Origin: Grifola frondosa
Taxonomy: Eukaryota; Basidiomycota; Agaricomycetes; Polyporales; Grifolaceae
DNA length: 64,000 bases
Assembly: GCA_001683735.1 (NCBI GenBank)
Contig: LUGG01000020.1
Span: 668,701-732,700, forward strand
Direction of reading: 5' to 3'
The notes below the pieces were generated by a model that was not told the origin of the DNA, searched no databases, and saw nothing but the letters and a program-made list of their open reading frames with translations. The translations under genes were made by a program, and so were the position numbers. Shown piece by piece: positions 84 to 38,257 of this stretch (its first letter is position 1; every line of letters starts with the position of its first letter).

Positions 84-2843
84 TCATGCTTCATCATCCC
101 AAGCTGATTCAATAGAGACTTCATGCTCCTGAGAAAACCTGACCTTATACTCGACATACGTTGCTAATAACCTGTCATACCCAACAGGATCATTAAGGCG
201 AACACATGCTGTATTGAGGTAGTCTTCTGCAAATTCCATGTGTTCGGATGCAATAGGGCCACCTAGCATTGTGCATGCTTTGTGGTGCCAGCTAGCCAGG
301 ATATTGATAAGCTAATGTAACCAAGGTATTAGGCCAAAATCAAGATCAAGGAGTTCAAATCACTTACAATTGTTGCCAAAAAAGCCGTTGAGTTTCTACC
401 ATAGTACTGAGGCAACTTTTGTCGATCAAGCTGCCAAATTCCATATCCCATTTGTACAAATGCCAAAAGAGAGTGTTTCCCCCTATGAAATGACAAGCGG
501 GCCTTCTGCCAGCAGGGATGGGGTACTGTTGCATGAAGTCGATCTGGCTGAAAAAGATGATGTCAATACCAAAGATAATTAAAGCTAATTAATCTGAACT
601 TACCTGTTGATCATCTTCGCCCTCTAGTACATGCTGCAAGAAAAGTTGCAGAGTTGGTCGTGGTGAAGGAGGTCCCAATCCATTGTTTTCTTCATCAGTT
701 AGAAGATGCTCGCAGATGCGAGCAAATTCTTTGCTGACAGGAATACTGTCAGAGTCGGATGGTATTTGATAAAAAAAGCCAGGAATATAGTGGGGAGGAT
801 CATTGGGGTAGGTAGGGCTAGGCTGTGAGCCCAAGAATGCCTCACATGTGCACGTGCCTCACTAAAAAAGTCATAATATCTATGGTGAAGCTATACAAAT
901 GGATGAATCAGTATTTGTAAAGTAAATAAGAGGCATAATTACATAGCCATTTACCAAATCCATCACTGGTGTGACTGGCATTACATTGGCTGCAGAATGA
1001 TTTCAGATTTAAATTCAACGAATAAAAACAAAACTTACTGATTATGGCTTGATCGACATCCATAAGTACCCTGGGCAAATTGGGACTATTCAGACCAGGT
1101 ATAACAATGGTGTTTGGTTGTTGTTCCAAGATAGTAGCTATGCATCAATACACAGGTGTGAAGAAAGTCCTGGGCAAGATTGGGAATTTTTTCGAATCCT
1201 TTATCTAAAATAATATGAGCACGCATATACTGGGCAGCAAGGTTAATAATATTGGTCCACGTTAACCATGGAACAATGGGGAAGGATTTGGAAGGCTTTG
1301 AAAAAATATAGCAGAAAACATTTCAGGGTGAAGATATAATTTGGACAATTGGTGGTTTAATGGTGTAGCAGAAAAAAGATGACTTGGAATGTTATGAGGA
1401 AATAGATCAACTATTGATTTTTAAATCAGAAAATATATCATATGTAGAATTTAAAACATACCAGGTCCCAAGTGGATAGGCACCAAGTGGTCCTCGTTGA
1501 CAGGCAATACTGCAATTAAAGCTATAAATAATGTTTCAAAAAAGAAAGTTGAACACTTACCATCAAGTTGCTCAAATTGACTAAGTGCTGGACCATCTTG
1601 AGTCTCCACTTGTGCTATTATTTAAATTTCTGTTAAAATTCTTTAAATTTAATAATTAAACTTACCATTGAACTGTGAAGCTGGATTTTACACGCAATAT
1701 TGATGGGGACCCTTAAAAACATGAAATTGAAACTTACAGATCCCTTGTTGTGCTATATTGTTCATATCTATTTGGGTTTGAGTTTGATATTGTAATGAGT
1801 ATAAATCAAATACTTACATTGACCTTGATAATTATATACAATATATACTGAGCATTATTAGTGTCTTTATAAAAGATTTAACACTCACTAATGGTTATGT
1901 TTCCCAATTGTGATGAAGCATCTATAACAAATTATTGTAATTATTGTAAAATATAAAGATTCAAACATACAAGAAAGCTGAAAAACTACTGAGGCTATAC
2001 AACCTTGAGCAAGTGTTTCAAAATAATAATAACATAAATACTTACAGAGAGATTGTTTTTGCATGGTCATGCTTGCTATAATCAAAGTGATATTTGTTAA
2101 AAATGATAAAAAATAAAGAAAAAAGTTTTTACATTTGACTTGATGAAGTTGGTAGACTATTTGAATTTAGAAGTATTCAAGATGTTATAATATAATAAGT
2201 ATCTACCCAACGTGTTATTGCCCTGATGGACAGCTATTAAAAGAAAGAAATATTGAAATTAGATTTACAAAAACTAATAGTAGTATACACTTACATAACA
2301 TTTGTTCAATTTGAGATACTATGAAAAATTAAATTAAAATGTTTTGAATAAATTGAAAATAGCACAATACTTACTCAATGTTTGTTGTTGCTGTATGATA
2401 CCTGTTCAATAATATTAGATGAACAATATCCATATGTTATAAAGTGAAGCCTTACCCTCTAGTTGTCCATGTTGAAATACTGTTCAATTGGTCATTAAAT
2501 AAATTAGCTGTAAAATCAGAAAATTCTTACTGATGTTTTGTTGTTGTTCAGAAAGTACTTCTATAATTGAGAATCAATAATGTTATTTTTTGAAATTCAA
2601 ATTGTACATACGAGATGGGTTGATGTTTTCAATTTCTGACAGATTGGTTAGCAAACAATAGAAAGATAATTGCTCAACATTACCGGGGAATAATTCATTC
2701 ATGAGCTCTTCATATCCTGGATCAATTGTGGAACCAGTTGCAGGTATGACTGTAACAATGTAAATAAAGTAATTTGTGGATATTGATTTGGACCTACAAT
2801 CCAATCCTTGCGAATAAAATATGTAGGAGTTCGCAGCATCCAT
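84..2843 (-). CDS. Microexon-rich gene encoding a Gln-rich protein of unknown function
   Basis: Reconstructed from consistent GT-AG introns. Exons (high to low): 2843-2798, 2749-2684, then thirteen microexons 2635-2612, 2560-2531, 2479-2456, 2401-2375, 2318-2295, 2233-2207, 2156-2133, 2075-2046, 1994-1971, 1921-1889, 1847-1818, 1767-1738, 1680-1666, then 1614-1561, 1509-1462, 1410-1039, 989-955, 890-604, 547-368, 311-84. Introns are 41-64 bp, mostly with GTAAGT-like donors. Exons 2-17 start and end in phase 1. Microexons encode 5-11 residue peptides such as QVLSEQQQNI, GIIQQQQTL and SVHQGNNTL. The C-terminal exons encode an ordinary globular-looking segment ending SIESAWDDEA. The 1410-1039 exon switches frame twice (one stretch reads in another frame) and 890-604 is one base short of phase, near CCCC runs; I read these as indel errors or unresolved introns. 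No family recognised. Confidence 0.72.
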
Positions 2844-3039: not shown

Positions 3040-5300
3040 GCTGCGCTTGTTGAGCAGGATCAGGGAGACATCCTCGGGCCATCTGGTCGTCCGCAGCTTG
3101 CTCCTAACTTTATGTTTGGCACCACGAGACGTCCCAGTTGCATCGTGACTATGCGCCCCCCAATCAACGAGGAGGATGCAGGTTTCCATTTCCCTCAACA
3201 ACAAATGCCTCCCGGGTTTGATCTCCATGCTCTTGACCTGGTTCAAAGGCAGCCGGATGGCGAGGCGGAGATATCTGGTATTATGGCGAAGCAGGTGAGT
3301 CAGATTGCTTCGTTGCTGTTCATAACATGCCAAAGACGTCGTATTAGATTGCCTCTCTCACCAGCAGCTTGCTTTAAACCAGGTATTGTCGTTCCAGACG
3401 CCTGGGCTTGCACTGGACGTGGGACCACCCACCGACGTGTACACAACAGGTCCCGATGAGTGTAGGACTAGGTGATCCCAGTCTTGGTTTTATTGGTTTT
3501 TCCGCCAGTCAGGATGGATTCGACGATGGCTTCGCACCTCTTGTTAGTCTGGATGGGGCTTCTCAGCACAACCGCTGTGATTCCAGCTGGCGCATCAGTG
3601 AGTTTCAGTGCCTCTTCACAGGGAATAGTCTGACATGATAAATTTTCAAGATCGAGGCGTCGGTGGCATTCAGACAGGAAACAATTTCGCTGCAGATCTC
3701 GCTGAAGCCCAAGCTCAGCTACAGAGTCTCCAACAGTTCCGTGCTGCGGCAGGTGGTCCCCACCAGAAGATGGCATCATTCAGCTTCCCGAACATGTTGC
3801 CCAACACGATGGCCGCCAATATGATGAGTCTAGGACTCGGCGGCATCAACCTTCTTCCGCAGCAGCAACAACAGTTCCAATCACAGCTCCAACAGCAGTC
3901 TAACCAACCTCAGCGCAAGTCGCTGTTCGTCCTTATCTCCCTCAGGCTTCCTTGCCACTACTTCTTGTCGCTGGAAAACTTGTTATGGGTATCTTACGAG
4001 TCAACAAACGTAATCGTTCCGACGCATACGTCGCAACTGAAGTTCTAGACGCCGATATCTACATCTGTGGTTCTAAGAACCGTAATCGCGCTCTTGAAGG
4101 CGACATCGTTGCCGTAGAATTGCTGGACGTTGATGAGGTCTGGGGTACGGAGAAGGAAAAAGAAGAGAAGAAGAGGAAGAAGGACGAGAACTCTGTCTAC
4201 GACCTCAAGGGTGTTGCCGGGCGAAAGAATGACAAAAAAAGGACGACGTTGAGGCCGATGGACAAGGCCTTATGTTATTTGAGGACAGGAGTACGGGACA
4301 AGATAGTAAGTTGTTCTCAGTCGATTGACAGAACGTTTGTGCAGGGCTATTGATGATGTCAAAGCTCAGTTCGCCGGACACGTCGTTGCTGTCGTGGAGC
4401 GGATGCCTGGGCCTTTTCTGGGCCTTGGGGTTTGTTGCGACCCTCATCTGCTGCTATGAAGGAAAAGCAGGAGGCTGAGCATCGCGAGAGAGAGGCAGAC
4501 CGCGGCGACGAACCCAGGTGTCCTATCGAGCGACCAAAGATTGTTTGGTTCAAACCTACCACAAGCGTGTGCCGCTCATCGCGATTCCCACAGAACAGGT
4601 GCCTCCCGACTTCGTTCAGAACTCGGAAGTCTGTGCTGACAAGCTTTTTGTTGCATGCATTAGGCGTCATGCAAGATCACCGATCCTCATGCAATTCAAT
4701 GCGTTAATTACTCTTTACCAGCCAATCAGTTCACTTCATCCTTTCACATTGGTCGAGGAACTCGGACCATTTGGAGATATCCAAGTAGAGACCAGTACTC
4801 TCCTCAAAGACTGCAATTTCCCCACTGAGGACTTCAGCGAAAAGTCGTGAAGTGTTTTCCTCCTACCCCTTGGACGTGAGTTATGTCTCTTGTGTAGGTG
4901 CTTATTTGACCGGATGAATGATCAGCATTCCAGAACGCGAGCTCGATGTTCGCAAGGACTTGGCAAGGAACGGATCTTCACCATTGGTCCTGAAGATACC
5001 AAGAACTTGAACGATGCAGTTTCCATCAAGCTCAATGATGATGTTACTTATGACATCGGAGTGCACATAGCGATATTTCCCAAGCCTAACACGGCACTGG
5101 ATCCGGATGCCCGCAAGCGTGCTACGAGTGTGTATCTTGTGCAGCGATCGTGCCGATGTTGCCGCCCACTTTGAGCGAGCAGTTATGCAGTCTTGTTCCG
5201 GGTCAGAATCGTCTGACTTTCTCGGTTATCTTTACCATGACGAACGATGCGAAGGTTTTGAAGAACTGGTTTGGAAGGACCGTCACCAGGCCAGTCATAG
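3040..5300 (+). pseudogene. Broken SSD1-like gene (RNase II-like, cold-shock/RNB family)
   Basis: Pieces in changing frames resemble fungal SSD1, a catalytically inactive RNase II relative that binds mRNAs of cell-wall proteins. Seen: an N-terminal low-complexity part (FHFPQQQMPPGFDL near 3190), a Gln-rich tract (3858-3915), a cold-shock-like segment (LVMGILRVNKRNRSDAYVAT, 3978-4040), a charged KEKEEKKRKK stretch (4155), the part around RPIERPKIVWFKP (4520), and the start of RNB (YDIGVHIA near 5050, ARKRATSVYLVQR near 5110). At least six frame changes and several stops separate them, and the RNB domain ends after about 100 residues near 5290, so this is a truncated relic rather than a simple sequencing problem. 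Confidence 0.75.
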
Positions 5301-6838: not shown

Positions 6839-7165
6839 CCAGTCAAAATTGCGAACATCATGGGCTTAGCAGATAAATTCATAAAATATACTAATAAGAT
6901 TGTTGTCAGAAGACGGATCTCTGCCATTCAGATGGTGGGTGGTCACACCAGTCAAAATTGCGAACATCATGGGCATAGCAGATAAATTCATAAAATATAC
7001 TAATAAGATTGTTGTCAGAAGACGGATCTCTGCCATTCAGATGGTGGGTGGTCAAACCAGTCAAAATTGCGAACATCATGGGCTTAGCAGATAAATTCAT
7101 AAAATATACTAATAAGATTGTTGTCAGAAGACGGATCTCTGCCATTCGGATGGTGGGTGGTCAAG
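6839..7165. repeat. Three tandem copies of a 109-bp unit
   Basis: Units start at 6839, 6948 and 7057, each with CCAGTCAAAATTGCGAACAT, and differ at only a few positions (for example CTTAGC/CATAGC, and CAGATGG/CGGATGG in the last). The open frame across them is a by-product of the period, as 109 is not a multiple of three. Confidence 0.95.
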
Positions 7166-7384: not shown

Positions 7385-7743
7385 TAGTGTTGCTGCGCAG
7401 CTAAGTCAGGCCTAAATGATATATAACTCATAACTTGTGTAATTTTTTAGCTATCATAGTGATCTTACCTTCATTCTAATGTCAAAGGGGAAAATGTTAT
7501 ACCTCATATTGATGGAGATATAGCCACAAAGCCGATTGCAAAGTCCAACTTTTTAGTCAGCTTTTTTACCAATGTAACTGAAATTGAAATACATTAAAGA
7601 TAATTATGCAAATGGTGGTGTTACATTCAAATACATATACATCTTAGCTATTAATTTCAATTGAGATCATGTCATTATCTGCAAAATTCATGTCAGAATA
7701 TCTAAAAAGCTGAAACAGGTGTGACTAAGCCATGGCAACACTA
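7385..7743 (-). mobile_element. hAT-type MITE, copy A (359 bp)
   Basis: Begins TAGTGTTGCTGC and ends GGCAACACTA, the inverted termini shared by five copies in the window. Flanks TCCTGATG and TTCCGATC match at 5 of 8 positions, so any 8-bp target duplication has decayed. It is 22 bp shorter than the others. Orientation taken relative to copy B. No coding capacity. Confidence 0.8.
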
Positions 7744-7915
7744 TTCCGATCCATGCTACAGCCTCCCCGCATACAGAGTGTGTGTGTGTGTGGTTTTATT
7801 ATTAGATTTTAGTTCGGGTCCCATTCGAGTCTTATCACCAATATAGCCCAAGTCTGCACAGAATTTGGTGAACAACTTCCCTGACTGAGTTTGTGACCAC
7901 TATGATAAGTGGGCC

Positions 7916-17004: not shown

Positions 17005-18184
17005 ATGTCCGAGATCGATATCGCAACTGCAGAAGGTGTTCTTGCGTACCTATCTAATACCCCTTTCGCGGCTGTGGAAGCGACTAGCCTTCCGGGCGGC
17101 TTTGGAAACTACACCTTCCGGATCCGTCTCCGCGAACAATATGGCAGTCGCAATACCTTGGTACTCAAGCACGCGAAACCATATCTTCCAGGATCGAGAC
17201 AGTTTCCGATCTCTCTGGACCGTCAGGCGAGTGCACAGTTTGGACATTATAACCTTGAGCTTAACGATTCGGTGATGCTGTTCAGCTGTATGAGGTCGGT
17301 GCGTTGAGACGAATGAAAGAGTGGCTACCCGAGGGCTCGTTGGTGACGGTGCCTGAGGTGCATCTGTTCGACCAGGGCGCGAACGTGATCATCATGGACG
17401 ACTGCGGCGAGCACGTCGTCACGCTCAAGCAGTTGCTGCAGAGCGCACCTCCTTCCGGCGCGCCGCACTTCGGCCAAATCGGGATCGCGCTCGGCGAGTT
17501 CCTTGGACGCTTGCACTCGCGGGGGAAATCAGACGCGGAGGCACTACAGTTCTTCGACGGCAACGCGCAGGCACGGAGGCTATCTGCGTTCGTCACCTAC
17601 GGCAGGCTCGTTTCCAATCTCACGGACCACCAGCTGCCTGCACTGTCGAACCCGCCTCTGAAGGTTCCGAAGGCCACGCTCGATGCGATCTCGAGGATCG
17701 CAGCAGAGGTCGCGCAGCGAATGATGACAACGCGCGACACGGTGGTCATGGGGACTTCTGGCCCGGGAACGTGCTGGTCGCCCTCAAGGGGAACACGTAC
17801 GGAGGGGCTGCGGAGATTGAGCGCCTGTATGTGGTGGACTGGGAGCTGGCCAAACCTGGGCTGGCGGGCATGGATGTGGGTCAGTTCTGCGCAGAACTGC
17901 ACTTGATGCGCGTGTTCCATGCGGGAAGCGCAAGCGCAGCATCGGCCGTTCTGCAGGCTTTCCTAGAGTCGTACCGCAGGGAATCCGAAGTCGACGTCGA
18001 CACCGCGAGGACCGCGATCGTGCACGTTGGTGCTCATCTCGTAGCGTGGACACCTATTGTCCCGTGGGGCAGTAAGGAGAAAACGAGAGAGGTTGTACGG
18101 GAAGGCATAGGTTACTTGGTCGATGGCTACGAGGCGTCGGAGGATTATATTGCGCAGTGTCTTCTTGGTCTTCTTCTTCCATGA
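17005..18184 (+). CDS. Aminoglycoside phosphotransferase (APH)-fold small-molecule kinase
   Basis: APH/methylthioribose-kinase-like protein with exons 17005-17226 and 17286-18184. The intron is of the GC-AG type (CAG|GCGAGT, branch CTTAAC). N-lobe: PGGFGNYTFRI glycine-rich loop near residue 28 and LVLKHAKPY with the ATP-binding Lys. C-lobe: catalytic HGDFWPGNVLV and metal-binding VVDWELA (near 17835). A single missing base at 17746/17747 shifts the frame between RDTVV and HGDFWPGN; both sides are well conserved, so a sequence error is likelier than decay. About 370 residues. The substrate cannot be told from sequence; fungal members of the family are mostly uncharacterised. It starts about 345 bp after EF2 on the same strand. 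Confidence 0.85.
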
Positions 18185-32398: not shown

Positions 32399-35300
32399 TC
32401 ATGGAGCGGAGGGATGTGTTCGATGGAAATCAGCGACGAGATTGGTGGCATTGTCAAGATTGGAGTGGGGTTCCCATGAATTTTCAGACTCGGGGTATCC
32501 TACCCATTTCATGAGGTATTGAAGACAATTACGAAACATCCGCGAATCGAGAACCTTTTCGACCTCGTACTCGGGTTCTCCTTCGATGATGACTGCCGGA
32601 GGTTTCGTCGGCTTCCTGCCTGGAATTTGATCCATCTTGTGGATGGACAACAACGATGCATGAAATACGGGGTGAATACGCCAGGTTCGAGGGAGTTTAA
32701 GCCTGAAGTTGAGCGATGAGACTTGTTCGAGAATTTTGAATGGTCCATGATGTTTCGTGCTCAGCTTCTTGCTTGGCTGCTCGGTACGGATATTGTGAGC
32801 ATCTAACCAGACTAGATCACTGACTTTGAACTGAGGTGCGTTCTGTACATGTTGATCGTAGTAATGTTTCATATGATCCGCTGCGGTTGTAGCGCCGCTC
32901 GTGATTCCTTTCGAGCACTTTCACGTTCGTGCATTAAGGTGTCTAAGTTTGGGTGTCATACCGCTGTGACAAGATCTGGCATCGCTCACGGATGATGTTC
33001 TAAGTCCGCGTAAAATGGAGAAACCTTCATAGACCTGTGAGCTTGATTATTGTACGTGAATTCTGCTTCGATAAGCTTGTCGTGCCAATCATCCTGACAG
33101 AAATTGCAGTAGATGCGCAGATATTGTTCGAGTTCCTGGTTTATCCGTTCCGTCTGCCCGTCTGTCTGTGGGTGATAAGCCGTGGACATCACAGAGGTTA
33201 TTTCGAGGATTTTGCACAGCTCCTGGAAAACTCTTGATGCGAATTGAGTTCTGCAGTCCGAGATGATTTTCTTAGGGAGACCATGCTGTGACCAAATCTC
33301 TCGATAGTATACCTCGGCAACTTCTTGGGCGTTGATCGTACCATGGACAGGAAAGAAGCATGCTCATTTTGTCATTCGATCAGCGACCACCATAATCGTG
33401 TCATGTTCACTGCTTTCTGGCAGTCCCGTAATCAAATCGACCGTTGTAACATCCCAAGGTTGGTCTGGAATTTTGTTAGGCTGGAGAGGACCGTACGATT
33501 GTCGAGGGAAGGTTTGTTATGTTGACAAGCGTCACAGCCGTCGATGTAATTCCGGACATATACTGAGAGCCCTGGCCACCAGTAGTTACAGCTGATGAGC
33601 TCGTACGTCTTCCAGCATCCTGGATGACTGGCGGTAGGATGGTCATGATGCAATTGAACGATTTCCTTGCAAATAGCGTCATCCTTTGGTACGTAGACCT
33701 TTCCTCGGTACAACAGTAAGCCGTTGTCCATGTTCCAGTCTTGTAGACCAGCAGTGAGTTCACGTGGACCATGGGCCATCACTTTTTGTATCAGCTCCGT
33801 CGCGATCTCATTGCGTGTGAGAGCCTCACGAATATGATCAAGTAGAGATTGGTCGGGGACAATAGATGCATAACCGGGTTGGATAGCGCGGGTTTGAAAG
33901 TATTCTGCCTTCAACACAACCTTGTCCCTGTTGTCTAAGGTGACCCCCTCTTCATGGTCGGTTCTATGCGATAGCGGATCAGCTCGTTGCATAGTTTTCC
34001 CCGGACGACGGTGAATCACGAAGCCGAATTGGGTGAGACAAAGTGACCAACGAGCCTGTCTGCGCGTGAGATCTTGAGCCTTTCGAAAATATTCAAGGTT
34101 CTTATGATCTGACCGAATTTCAATGGGGTGGGGGCCTCCTTCGAGATAATGCCGATATTCCTCCAGGGCACGAATAATTGCGAGCAATTCTTTGTCGTAA
34201 ATTTCATAATTGTGTTCATGTTCATTCAGCCCTTTGGAATAGAAGGTGACCAGGTGCCAAGCTCCTTCTCCATCTCGTTGTTCAAGAACGGCACCTGTTG
34301 CAAAATCCGAAGCATCTGTCTCCAATCTAAACGGCTGGTCTAAATCTGGAAGTTTTAGAATGGGTGCTGAGGTGAACGTGCATTTCAAAGTTTCAAAAGT
34401 GTTTTATTGTTCTCGTTCCCATTGCCATTTACAGCCTTTCCAAGTTAGGATGTTCAACAGCTTAGAAACGTCCGCGAAGCTTTGAATGAAGTGTCGGTAG
34501 AAATTTGCGAAACCTAGAAAGGCTTGGACTTCCTTGACAGTTTTGGGTGCTGGCCAATTGAGAACTCCTTCGACCTTCTTCGGATCCATGGAGACGGAGT
34601 TCTGCGAGATAATCATGCTGAGGTAGTCAATAGACAGCTCTTTGAACAAGCATTTCTCTGGTTTCAAGAATAAGTCTCTGTCTTATAAGCATTTAAGCAC
34701 CTCGCGCGTGAGACGTCGATGTGTACGAAGGTCAGTGGTAAAGATAAGAATATCGTCAAGGTAAACCACCACATGCCCTTTGAGGATGAGATCTTTCAAA
34801 ATCTCGTTCATCATGGCCTGAAACATTCCTGGAGAACTGTGAAGACCGAAAAACATGACCATTGGTTCGAATAAGCCTCGGTGTGTCCTAAAGGCTGCCT
34901 TCCATTGATCACCATCCTTGATCCGTACGTTGTTGTACCCCCAACGTAGGTCCAGCTTCATAAAATACTGGGCACCTTTCAGTTGGTTGATCAAAGAGCT
35001 GATACAAGGGAGCGGGTAGCGATTTTTGATCGTGACTGCATTCAGCTTTCGGTAGTCCTGGACGAGTCGAAGAGATCCATCTTTCTTCTTCACAAAGAAG
35101 ACTGCTGCACCGACAGGGCTCTTGGATGGATGAATGTAACCTTTTCGGAGGTTCTCCTCCAAGAACTCATCCAGTTGACGGGTTTCTTCCGGTGACAAGG
35201 GGTAAACCTTCGAAATGGGTGGCAAGTTTTGGTCCGGCATCAGGTCAATTGCATGGTCATAAGACTTGCTCGTAGGGAAGCATTCACTGGCTGTCTTGGA

Positions 35301-36199
35301 GAAGACGTCCTCGAAGTCATGAAGGTGGTCTGAAATGATCTCCTTCCATTCCTTCTTCTGCTTTCCTGCTTGGGCTGCTTCTTCGATCTCCTGTGACCTG
35401 GTGTATTTGGCGCAGATTTCTACCCATTGGTCCAAGATGGCATTAGATTCAGGGTCGTGCGAGTCGACTTCGGACCAAGCTACCGTGTCCTTGTAAAACT
35501 CCCAATATCGCTTCGAATAGCGGTATCCTAGGGGAACTTCATCATCCACACGAATGAATTCTTCTTCTAGTTCCATTCGTTCTTCCCAAGCAGGCCGCGG
35601 TGGGGCTGTCATGTCATTTGTCTCGGCTATACGAAGTTCTTTCATCGATGCCAAGACTCGGTCAACTTCCTCCATAGTTTGTGGTCTCTTCTTTTCCTTC
35701 TTCGCGAACCTCGGTCCGCATTCTTGTGGGCACCTAGTAAACTCCAATGTTCCTGCGTCCCAGTCTATCTCCGGATTGTGTTGTTGAATGTAGTCGAGGC
35801 CGATGATCAGGTCTCGATCACCTACATTGGTCACCAGCATGGGGACCTCTGTCTCATGATCTCCTATCTTCAATTTCAACACTGTATAGACTTGGATCGG
35901 TCCGCCTTCGTTTTCGGATCGATCTGCATTGTAGATGACTAGGGTTTTTTGAGTGGCTTCACTCCAGCGTTGTGCTTGTGCACGAAGTCTTCGTGAATGA
36001 ATACTGAGAATGCTCCAGAATCTAGAAGCACCTGCATTTTTACGGATCCCTTGCTGCCGCTTACAGTAACTGGGAGATCAAAATTCTGACGACTTTTCGA
36101 TGTCTCACTTACACTAATACAATTGTAGCAGTTGCGAGAGAGAGAGGCCTTCATGTCAGCAGGGACAACATGAGGCCATTCTAAAAATTCATGTCCCAT
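32399..36199 (-). pseudogene. pol: Gypsy-1 pol: protease, RT, RNase H, integrase, chromodomain
   Basis: Minus-strand order. Retropepsin with LLDSGAFSVFIHEDF (about 36030) and DLIIGLDYIQQHNP. Reverse transcriptase with SPVGAAVFFVKKKDGSLRLV, a conserved RTHRGLFEPMVM-like core and the catalytic YLDDILIF (near 34755). RNase H with LETDASDFATGAVL, YDKELLAI and SDHKNLEYF. Integrase with a zinc module (HHDHPTASHPGCW ... CDACQ) and the DDE core in pieces (SDCRTQFASRVFQEL; NQELEQYLRI). C-terminal chromodomain EYEVEKVLDSRMF ... WVGYPESENSWEP, ending at 32399. Stops or frame changes near 34683, 34404, 33432, 33360 and 32940 break it. The chromodomain places it in the chromovirus group. Confidence 0.92.
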
Positions 36200-36522
36200 G
36201 ACGACGACATTCCAATCGCTCCTATTTCCTCGATCTTGGTGGATGATTCAGGCTCCCTAGCAGTTTCCTTCTGCTTGCCCTTGTCAACTGCTTTCTTCTT
36301 CTTCTCCTCGACAAGTTCCTGTCCTACAAGATGAATTAGCTCGTCGATGCTCATGTTGCGGATCGACTTTCCGGCGGGCTTCTTGTCTGGGCATGCATTT
36401 GCCAGATGGCCCATTTTACCGCATACGAAACACGCGCCCTTTGCGTGTGCCACGGCGCGGTCAACGTCCATTGTGTTGGGGTCGCGGGCATGAGTTGGGG
36501 CAGAGTGAGACGAACTCTGCAC
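36181..36522 (-). pseudogene. gag: Gypsy-1 gag zinc-knuckle segment
   Basis: Carries a CCHC knuckle (ACFVCGKMGHLANACPDKKP) followed by a Lys-rich linker (EEKKKKAVDKGKQKE) leading to the protease. It is cut from the rest of gag by the MITE at 36523-36903. Confidence 0.88.
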
Positions 36523-36903
36523 TAGTGTTGCCACGGCTTAGTCACACCTGTTTCAGCTTTTTGGATATTCTGACATGAGTTCTACAGATAATGACATCAC
36601 ATTAATTGAAATTAATAGTTAAGATGTATATGTATTTGAATGTAACACAACCATTTGCATAATTATCTTGAATGCATTTCAATTTCAGTTACATTGGTAA
36701 AAAAGCTGACTACAAAGTCGGACTTTTCAATCGGCTTTTTGGCCATATATCCATCAATACAAGGTATAACATTCTGATATATGGCATGATTATGCGGCTG
36801 TATATAGGCTATAAACTTAGTGTAAGAACACTGTGATATCTGAAAAACTGCACAAGTTATGAGTCATATATCATTTAGGCCTGACTTAGCTGCAGCAACA
36901 CTA
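36523..36903 (+). mobile_element. hAT-type MITE, copy E (381 bp), inserted in Gypsy-1 gag
   Basis: Starts TAGTGTTGCCACGGCTTAGT and ends GCTGCAGCAACACTA, with an exact 8-bp duplication CTCTGCAC at 36515-36522 and 36904-36911. It splits the gag coding region, so it moved after Gypsy-1 arrived. Confidence 0.96.
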
Positions 36904-38257
36904 CTCTGCACATGGGCATGATGATAAGCAGCCATCTTTGGCTGTTGCGAGGATGATCTGGGGTGTGCGTAGGTGCCGCAGGCCTGATCTACTCGTTGGG
37001 CCTGTTCGAGGTACTTCTCCCAGGTGGCCGGTTGCATCTCGTGGCCAGCGTTGCATCCCAAATTGATTGCTTGATTTGGGTTCGAAGGAGTGAAAGAAGA
37101 GTCTGCTGATTGTGGCCTGACAAGGGGGCCCATCGGCAGAAATGCTCAGCATAGGACTGCACCGCTCCATCATTGCGAAGATGCATCAGTGCCTGCTGTG
37201 CATCGAACTGTGAATCAAGACGTCCGTATTGTTTGAGGAATTCTTCTTTAAATTCCTCCCATGTACCGACGTTAGTATCTTGGTTGAATTTGTCACTGTA
37301 AGATGACACCCAGTCTAAGGCTCCTTCTCGGAGCGAGCCGAGAATTAATGCGATGGGATCTTTTGAATGCTCGACTTCATAACAGACGAAGTATGTCTCC
37401 CACGACTTCATCCACTGTTCCGCCATTGTTTCCTTCGTCGACTTTGCGAAGGACGTGGGCGGCGAGAGTTTGGGCTTACGAATAGTGCCCTCTTGCAGTG
37501 CGGCGGGCCTTTCGTAGTCGGGAGCAGGGACATCAAGTGACATGGAGGAGAGAGTAAAGGAGGTCGTGGGTCTGGGATTGGGGAGGCGGACCGGTAAGAA
37601 CTGGTGGGGCTCGAATGTTTGCTCGAACAAGAGCGTGGCCTTCCTCGGGACGGAGGGTGTTCAAGAGCGAGGCATTGAGCCCTGAGACTCTTGACTGACT
37701 CTCTCAATGAAGCGATGTCATCCCGGAGTTCCTGGGCGACCTGGTCGGCTTGAAGGGCCTTCGCCTCGGCTTTCGATGCTCTGTCCGCCAGAGCGACTAC
37801 GTCTGCGATACGGCTCTTGTTCTCATTCTCGAGGCCGTTCACTCGACCTACTTGGGCATTCACCGATCTGCTTAGAGAGATCGAGTCTTCCTCGAGTTCC
37901 GTGATACAGTGGATATGATTGGTCAGGCCCTCCCGGAGAAGGTTCGTTACCACCCTGGTTACGAATGCTTCGAGTTCCTGTTGGGCCTGAGTCTGTGGAG
38001 GAGGAGGAATGACCATGGTTTCCATGGGTGTCCACGGATTCTCGGACGACCTGGCTACGTCCATGAGGTTCGTCTGGATTGGCGAGAGTCGGGGCCGCAG
38101 ACTGAAGATTCGCTGCTGTGGGGGGAGTTCTTGTGACTCGAATACGTACCTCGGTGTAGGTTTGGAGGAGGTAGTAGAAGAGTCCAACGATGCAAAGGAT
38201 CGAGATGATGATGACGACAGTTTGGGTGACGATGAGAACAATCACCGGGTTGGACAT
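36904..38257 (-). pseudogene. gag: Gypsy-1 gag with an N-terminal membrane-type segment
   Basis: The first ATG (38257) opens MSNPVIVLIVTQTVVIIISI followed by LCIVGLFYYLLQTY, a strong transmembrane-type helix. A frame change then leads to a Gag frame with MDVARSSENPWTPMETM, a long coiled coil (about 37960-37690), and after another frame change the retrotransposon Gag core (AEQWMKSWETYFVCYEVEHS, EGALDWVSSYSDKF, FKEEFLKQYGRL). The core meets MITE copy E. Membrane segments are unusual in Gag; whether the helix is really joined to Gag depends on the frame changes being errors. Confidence 0.7.

Follow-up and report, generated by a model that had tools for sequence, protein, structure and literature searches.

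Gene structure at the locus

The 64,000-nucleotide stretch of DNA studied here, referred to as the window, corresponds to C18:668701-732700 of the 39.1-Mb Grifola frondosa genome, and it carries on its minus strand, at 2843-84, a predicted gene of 22 exons in which thirteen microexons follow one another. Exon 1 (2798-2843; 46 nt) contains the start codon at 2843-2841 and ends in phase 1, and its first residues match those of the NCBI models P0001-P0003. Exon 2 (2684-2749) has 66 nt and is symmetric in phase 1, as are exons 16 (1561-1614; 54 nt) and 17 (1462-1509; 48 nt) behind the array. The thirteen microexons between them, exons 3-15 at 2635-1666, measure 24, 30, 24, 27, 24, 27, 24, 30, 24, 33, 30, 30 and 15 nt, and the 16 introns between exons 1 and 17 range from 41 to 61 nt and are all of the GT..AG type. 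A preliminary description of this DNA had claimed these thirteen exons and their introns, with every exon a multiple of three and in phase 1 on both sides, and our reading and a splice search bore this out. The frame-neutral run proved even longer than claimed, as exons 2, 16 and 17 belong to it; exons 2-17 are thus 16 consecutive exons of length 0 mod 3, in phase 1 on both sides, each beginning at codon position 2. Considering that coding exons of G. frondosa strain CH1 average 217 nt and introns 63.6 nt, as given in the available part of the source (PMC12028448), the array exons are extreme, whereas the introns are ordinary in size.

The reading, the NCBI models and the splice search agree on most of the array, namely on microexons 3 (2612-2635, EIENINPS), 4 (2531-2560, QVLSEQQQNI), 5 (2456-2479, IFQHGQLE), 6 (2375-2401, GIIQQQQTL), 7 (2295-2318, ISQIEQML), 8 (2207-2233, SVHQGNNTL), 9 (2133-2156, VYQLHQVK), 10 (2046-2075, SSMTMQKQSL), 12 (1889-1921, YASSQLGNITI), 14 (1738-1767, YMNNIAQQGI) and 15 (1666-1680, SSQFN). 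The lengths of exons 11 and 13 are uncertain. Exon 11 (1971-1994), which has competing acceptors, is 24 nt in P0001 and P0002 and 18 nt by the splice search, and 15 nt is also possible. Exon 13 (1818-1847) encodes IYIVYNYQGQ when read as 30 nt, while all three NCBI models shorten it to the final 6 nt (1823-1818, SQ). Intron length is divisible by three in ten of the 16 cases. Introns 1, 2, 9, 10 and 16 (between 2797 and 1510) belong to these ten and also lack an in-frame stop, so that their retention would leave the protein open.

The C-terminal domain occupies five exons (1410-1039, 989-955, 890-604, 547-368 and 311-84). Exon 18, which encodes FPHNIP...DQA, opens this conserved domain; the window copy has a broken frame there, and the NCBI models assign part of the exon to an intron. 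Exon 19 has 35 nt and runs from phase 1 to phase 0, and exon 20 of the window copy is thrown out of frame by a difference near 845. Exons 21 (180 nt, PDRLHATV...FLATI) and 22 (228 nt, LINILASW...WDDEA) complete the domain, with the stop codon at 86-84.

A protein search with the C-terminal query from the window gave three proteins at E<=1 among 1535 candidates, all from G. frondosa: A0H81_14209 on C32, A0H81_11676 on C18 and A0H81_10050 on C13. These three NCBI models contain 12/13, 12/13 and 11/13 full-length microexon peptides, respectively. Exon 11 is absent from the C13 model P0003, and the C13 copy has a 1-nt deletion at this exon.

Chance expectation for the exon array

The array was analysed using a dynamic-programming splice-chain search, which starts at the donor of exon 1, is open to any phase and weighs donors, acceptors and branch-like motifs; the splice weights were generic, and they were set after the gene had been inspected. 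In this phase-blind search, 16 of 16 internal exons were multiples of three in phase 1, and the sole departure from the manual model was exon 11, with 18 nt compared with 24 nt. The longest symmetric phase-1 chain was 15, while 1000 dinucleotide shuffles reached 2 at most. At six pairs of thresholds, compared with 300 shuffles apiece, the gene gave chains of 5, 5, 15, 15, 16 and 16 and the best shuffle 2, 2, 2, 4, 5 and 8, and the observed chain was equalled by 0/300 shuffles at each pair. As a genomic background, we used 209,425 bases on both strands, comprising the window and 15 loci, some of which are near-identical copies. Chains of at least 4 occurred there only in the window gene (15), in its copies on C32 (15) and C13 (8, broken at exon 11) and in a paralogue on C2 (5), which is described below; a relative on C10 gave 3 and all remaining loci gave 2 or less.

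These results bear on the possibility that AT-rich non-coding DNA contains by chance a string of splice-like sites, which a human and a gene predictor alike have over-read. Several donors are indeed weak (GTAATG, GTAGAT, GTAAAA), and the weights were picked with the gene in view. Considering the shuffles, the lack of anything alike outside the gene family in these 209 kb and the exon boundaries common to the window gene and the C2 paralogue, we regard this explanation as extremely unlikely.

A genome-wide pattern of flanked microexons gave 241 and 53 matches compared with 209 and 181 for the control; it was swamped by GTAAGT tandem repeats and was uninformative. GTAAGT-rich tandem arrays lie at C6:1841301-1844232, with a spacing of ~453 bp, and at C4:2217191-2217516 and C5:2125002-2125407, with a spacing of ~80 bp.

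Three near-identical copies of the gene

The gene is present three times, within a segment of roughly 28-32 kb that is ~99% identical among C18 (647-676 kb, interrupted by a gap near 663-666 kb), the end of C32 and the end of C13. In the long aligned pieces of this segment, gap openings often outnumber mismatches. Between C18 and C32, the longest aligned piece has 87 gap openings and 50 mismatches, and the next has 33 and 47, respectively. Across the 3-kb gene region, 15 columns vary among the three copies; ten of them are gaps, and one lies inside an array exon. The C32 copy is open throughout exon 18, where its 171-codon frame is free of stops. Telomere-type repeats were not found in the stretches examined, and we therefore do not call the segment subtelomeric.

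Other elements are present in and around the segment. A three-copy tandem repeat with a 109-bp unit and 98% matches lies inside it at window 6839-7164. Upstream of the microexon gene and on the opposite strand, broken frames adjoin it at window 3635-4353, and they seem to resemble part of an SSD1/RNB-type protein.

A paralogue with an apparently corresponding exon array

When the genome was searched with the C-terminal protein, weak matches appeared on C2 and C8. The C2 locus (95.7-98.4 kb; C2:95725-98360) carries the five C-terminal exons in an open frame, and the C-terminal domains of the window gene and C2 are 27% identical over 361 positions (E=6e-30). In the model that we adopted, these exons are preceded by exon 1 with the start, by exon 2, which has 66 nt and ends in P-E, by eleven small exons of 24, 21, 24, 27, 24, 9, 21, 18, 30, 24 and 27 nt, and by exons of 204 and 30 nt. 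Exon 4 has 21 nt by manual reading, whereas the automatic symmetric search made it 15 nt; exon 14, read as one exon manually, was split by that search. The symmetric model was chosen over a higher-scoring free-phase one because exons 1-3 are alike in the two genes and because of the C-terminal frame, and this choice was a matter of judgement.

Exons 2, 3, 5, 6 and 7 are equal in length in the window gene and C2 (66, 24, 24, 27 and 24 nt). While BLASTP aligned nothing at E<=100 between the N-terminal parts of the two proteins (185 and 196 residues, array included), their exon boundaries coincide more often than expected by chance. We mapped the boundaries on an intron-blind MAFFT alignment, using the 6-nt form of exon 13 and the adopted C2 exon model. 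Nine boundaries fell in the same column, compared with a mean of 3.5 after the C2 array exons had been put in shuffled order (P=0.0006), and 11 fell within one column, compared with 7.4 (P=0.044). Within the array alone, 7 boundaries coincided, compared with 1.2 for random cuts (0/5000).

A protein search with the C2 query gave 0 proteins at E<=10 among 1440 candidates, and the C2 locus thus seems to be unannotated. The preliminary description had looked to homologues of the C-terminal domain in related fungi for a comparison of exon number; a comparison was possible with the C2 paralogue, whereas no annotated homologue appeared outside the three Grifola copies. A profile search found no relative among the 7997 candidates scored, and it is uninformative since the known Grifola proteins themselves were missed. 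Among the candidates searched, no homologue outside Grifola came up, which is not proof of the family's absence from other fungi. Pfam gave nothing above the cut-off for P0001 or the C2 model, NCBIfam had no match at E<=1, and the PDB sequences gave just two matches, with an E of 0.4. One scan of viral contigs with a two-sequence alignment likewise found no relative.

Decayed relatives

Two further copies, at C18:620.6-622.7 kb (88%) and C10:128.2-129.4 kb (77%), are of the C2 type and are decayed. In the main aligned piece between C2 and the C18:620k copy, C>T and G>A account for 122 of 176 changes, and the reverse transitions for 30. The two differ at 54/549 sites in exons 2-15, 73/734 in the C-terminal exons and 45/775 in the introns, with exon ends partly approximate. 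As the exons are more changed than the introns, no coding constraint is seen on the C18:620k copy. Exon 8 has 21 nt in both decayed copies and 9 nt in C2, a difference of 12 nt or four codons. The C10 relative has stops within its C-terminal match, and the splice-chain search found no open exon chain in the C8 relative. A dispersed repeat of ~380 bp occurs at window 7385-7744, at several places in L053 and in L028, and one copy lies inside the decayed C18:620k relative.

Given such relatives, the family as a whole could be a decaying, repeat-associated remnant that is no longer expressed and that inherited its exon pattern from a once-active ancestor. This explanation would suit the changes at C18:620k, C10 and C8, the frame breaks of the window copy and the placement of the three near-identical copies, which share a duplicated segment and of which two lie at the ends of contigs. 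Against it, the preponderance of gaps among the 15 differing columns and the single difference in an array exon look like assembly errors or very recent copying, exon 18 of the C32 copy is fully open, and the C2 gene is open across its C-terminal exons. We consider decay of the whole family improbable.

A transposon gene was also considered and rejected. Pfam detected no transposase or polymerase domain in P0001 or the C2 model. The window gene was found in at least three copies, each within one larger duplicated segment and none outside it, and the C2 type as at least one copy with open C-terminal exons and at least two decayed ones.

Elsewhere in the window, at 38632-58912, five stretches of 218-300 nt are repeated directly with 100% identity and a spacing of 17,834-17,835, and they flank open frames at 41-55 kb that resemble Gypsy gag/pol by eye. 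This region is probably a recent and unusually large long terminal repeat (LTR) element of roughly 20 kb. A second Gypsy-like element lies on the minus strand at 32399-38257, where integrase, reverse transcriptase and gag-like frames were recognised by eye.

The peptides encoded by the array

Glutamine accounts for 24 of the 114 array residues, in keeping with the Gln-rich peptides of the preliminary description, whereas its motif, hydrophobic-x-Q-x-x-Q-x-L, fits only some exons. In the window array with the 30-nt exon 13, hydrophobic residues recur every 3.4 positions (p=0.010, 2000 shuffles). An AlphaFold model based on three closely related sequences drew two long helices, at residues 50-82 and 87-120; both lie on the array, the part of the model with the highest confidence (50-59). 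Judged by hydropathy only, the N-terminus has no signal-like hydrophobic stretch, the best 12-residue mean hydropathy being 0.77 in the window protein and 0.57 in C2.

When aligned with each other, the array exons score slightly higher than their shuffled versions (mean score 10.7 compared with 9.65, sd 0.27), while the introns do not (14.3 compared with 14.2, sd 0.4). Likeness among exons without likeness among introns fits an old duplication of exon modules better than intron insertion, in which an uninterrupted coiled-coil exon would have been cut up by many introns in the manner of introner-like elements. The uniform intron sizes would agree with insertion. As the introns are mutually unlike and random insertion would not yield one phase 16 times, we find such an origin very unlikely.

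Interpretation of the array

The triplicated gene and its 27%-identical paralogue share a common plan, with a start exon, a 66-nt exon, 13 small exons in the window gene or ~11 in C2, and five exons for the C-terminal domain. On balance, we favor with moderate confidence a genuine, fast-evolving Grifola gene family, in which frame-neutral modules would encode a Gln-rich helical stalk, would be spliced constitutively and would keep the array pattern for longer than the sequence. In fungi, an intron of ~50 nt is normally what the splicing machinery recognises as a unit. If the spliceosome sees the ~50-nt introns of this gene as such units, the microexons would be spliced constitutively through intron definition and exon size would hardly matter, so that constitutive inclusion would be likelier than combinatorial skipping. 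The array may then form a Gln-rich, mostly helical, coiled-coil-like stalk that enables self-association, and the C-terminal domain may perform partner-specific work within the cell. Because every exon is frame-neutral, stalk modules could be duplicated, lost, lengthened or shortened in threes without destroying the protein, and the pattern of the array would thus outlive its sequence.

Several observations weigh against this interpretation. The gene model is known here from DNA sequence alone, and the C-terminal exons contain frame breaks in the window copy (exons 18 and 20) and in the C13 copy, which may be assembly errors or decay, either one. The conservation rests on two lineages inside one genome, and the C2 side of it is uneven: the best phase-blind chain of C2 is not uniformly symmetric (score 92.3 compared with 85.6 for the symmetric one), its chain in phase 2 is as long as that in phase 1, its exon 11 requires a poor GAG acceptor, and the boundaries of its exons 4 and 14 were set by judgement. 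With regard to the stalk, the helical periodicity weakens to p=0.059 once exon 13 is shortened to 6 nt, C2 gives p=0.09, and the structural model is poor, with a mean predicted local distance difference test (pLDDT) score of 33.2. The likeness among exons may also stem from CAA repeats alone.

The symmetry of the exons is an observation, and it makes combinatorial skipping possible. To the preliminary description, the array looked like a combinatorial splicing cassette. In such a cassette, subsets of the 13 symmetric exons would be skipped to give many stalk variants, up to 2^13 in principle. All exons are frame-neutral, acceptors compete at exons 11 and 13, and even retention would be tolerable for the five of 16 introns that are multiples of three and free of stops. 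Module duplication alone would leave the same symmetry, however, and short introns, by general knowledge of fungal splicing, favor intron definition and retention over skipping. The three deposited models, with their 12, 12 and 11 full-length exons and the 6-nt exon 13, display no isoforms. A cassette is unlikely in our view. It is also doubtful, and to a slightly greater degree, that a combinatorially spliced array of 11-13 microexons supplies a repertoire of coiled-coil stalks, for example for varied self-association or recognition, with the architecture selected while the sequence turns over.

Comparison with known systems

The aphid bicycle genes resemble the window gene in having many tiny internal exons, nearly all of which begin at codon position 2, and the 'phase 2' of the bicycle paper corresponds to the phase-1 introns of the Grifola gene (PMC9168663, from the available part of the text). 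All 16 of exons 2-17 of the window gene begin at this position. In the same part of that paper, bicycle proteins are described as diverging past similarity search while their exon structure is still recognisable (PMC9168663). The C2 paralogue behaves in this way, with no N-terminal BLASTP match and 7 coinciding array boundaries compared with 1.2, as seen in one paralogue and with an adopted exon model. The two systems differ in scale and content. Bicycle genes number in the hundreds in galling aphids (476 in one genome) and encode putative secreted effectors, in many of which there are two CYC motifs, according to that portion of the source (PMC9168663). The Grifola family, from a fungus that decays wood, comprises a few loci and has its own C-terminal domain and no evident signal peptide; when the NCBI-model and C2 proteins were read by eye, no C-Y-C was present.

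The preliminary description had likened the array to the microexon genes (MEGs) of schistosomes, and this likeness holds for the exon anatomy and fails for the signal peptide and the long introns. MEGs contain runs of short exons of 6-81 nt, mostly 0 mod 3, as does the Grifola gene with its 13 microexons of 15-33 nt, which make up most of its internal exons. As outlined in the accessible part of the source, MEGs have an N-terminal signal peptide, mostly 15-nt exons and introns of 100 to almost 5000 nt (PMC10526429). In contrast, the Grifola introns are ~50 nt and its exons mostly 24-30 nt, and a signal peptide is not evident. Bicycle genes are closer than schistosome MEGs in exon phase, and we do not suggest a common origin.

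Among fungi, the SP7-like effectors of arbuscular mycorrhizal species are a repeat family that was traced by its exon-intron structure. They are secreted and have one conserved intron before the first repeat rather than a microexon array, and we liken them by description only, from the part of the source at hand (PMC11333574). Xlr2 of Trichoderma contains a functional microexon in a filamentous fungus, which is single, regulated and located in a transcription factor, with no array (PMC11121469), and the abstract of that paper states that functional microexons were previously undescribed in filamentous fungi (PMC11121469). The preliminary description knew of no such array in a fungus, and among the matches listed, mostly open literature represented by titles and the beginnings of abstracts, none describes a fungal microexon array. 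Long-read alignment easily misses very short exons, as stated in the available text on the Ganoderma lingzhi annotation (PMC11590231).

In parasitic flatworms and aphids, the genes known to carry microexon arrays encode proteins that are secreted. An array in a fungus, with ~50-nt introns, no evident signal peptide and bicycle-like phase, would show that this architecture can arise in a genome where introns rather than exons are generally considered to be what is recognised, and that it can do so without serving secretion. The window gene and its C2 paralogue are a natural test of whether exon architecture can be conserved without sequence and of the number of frame-neutral modules that a stalk can gain or lose.

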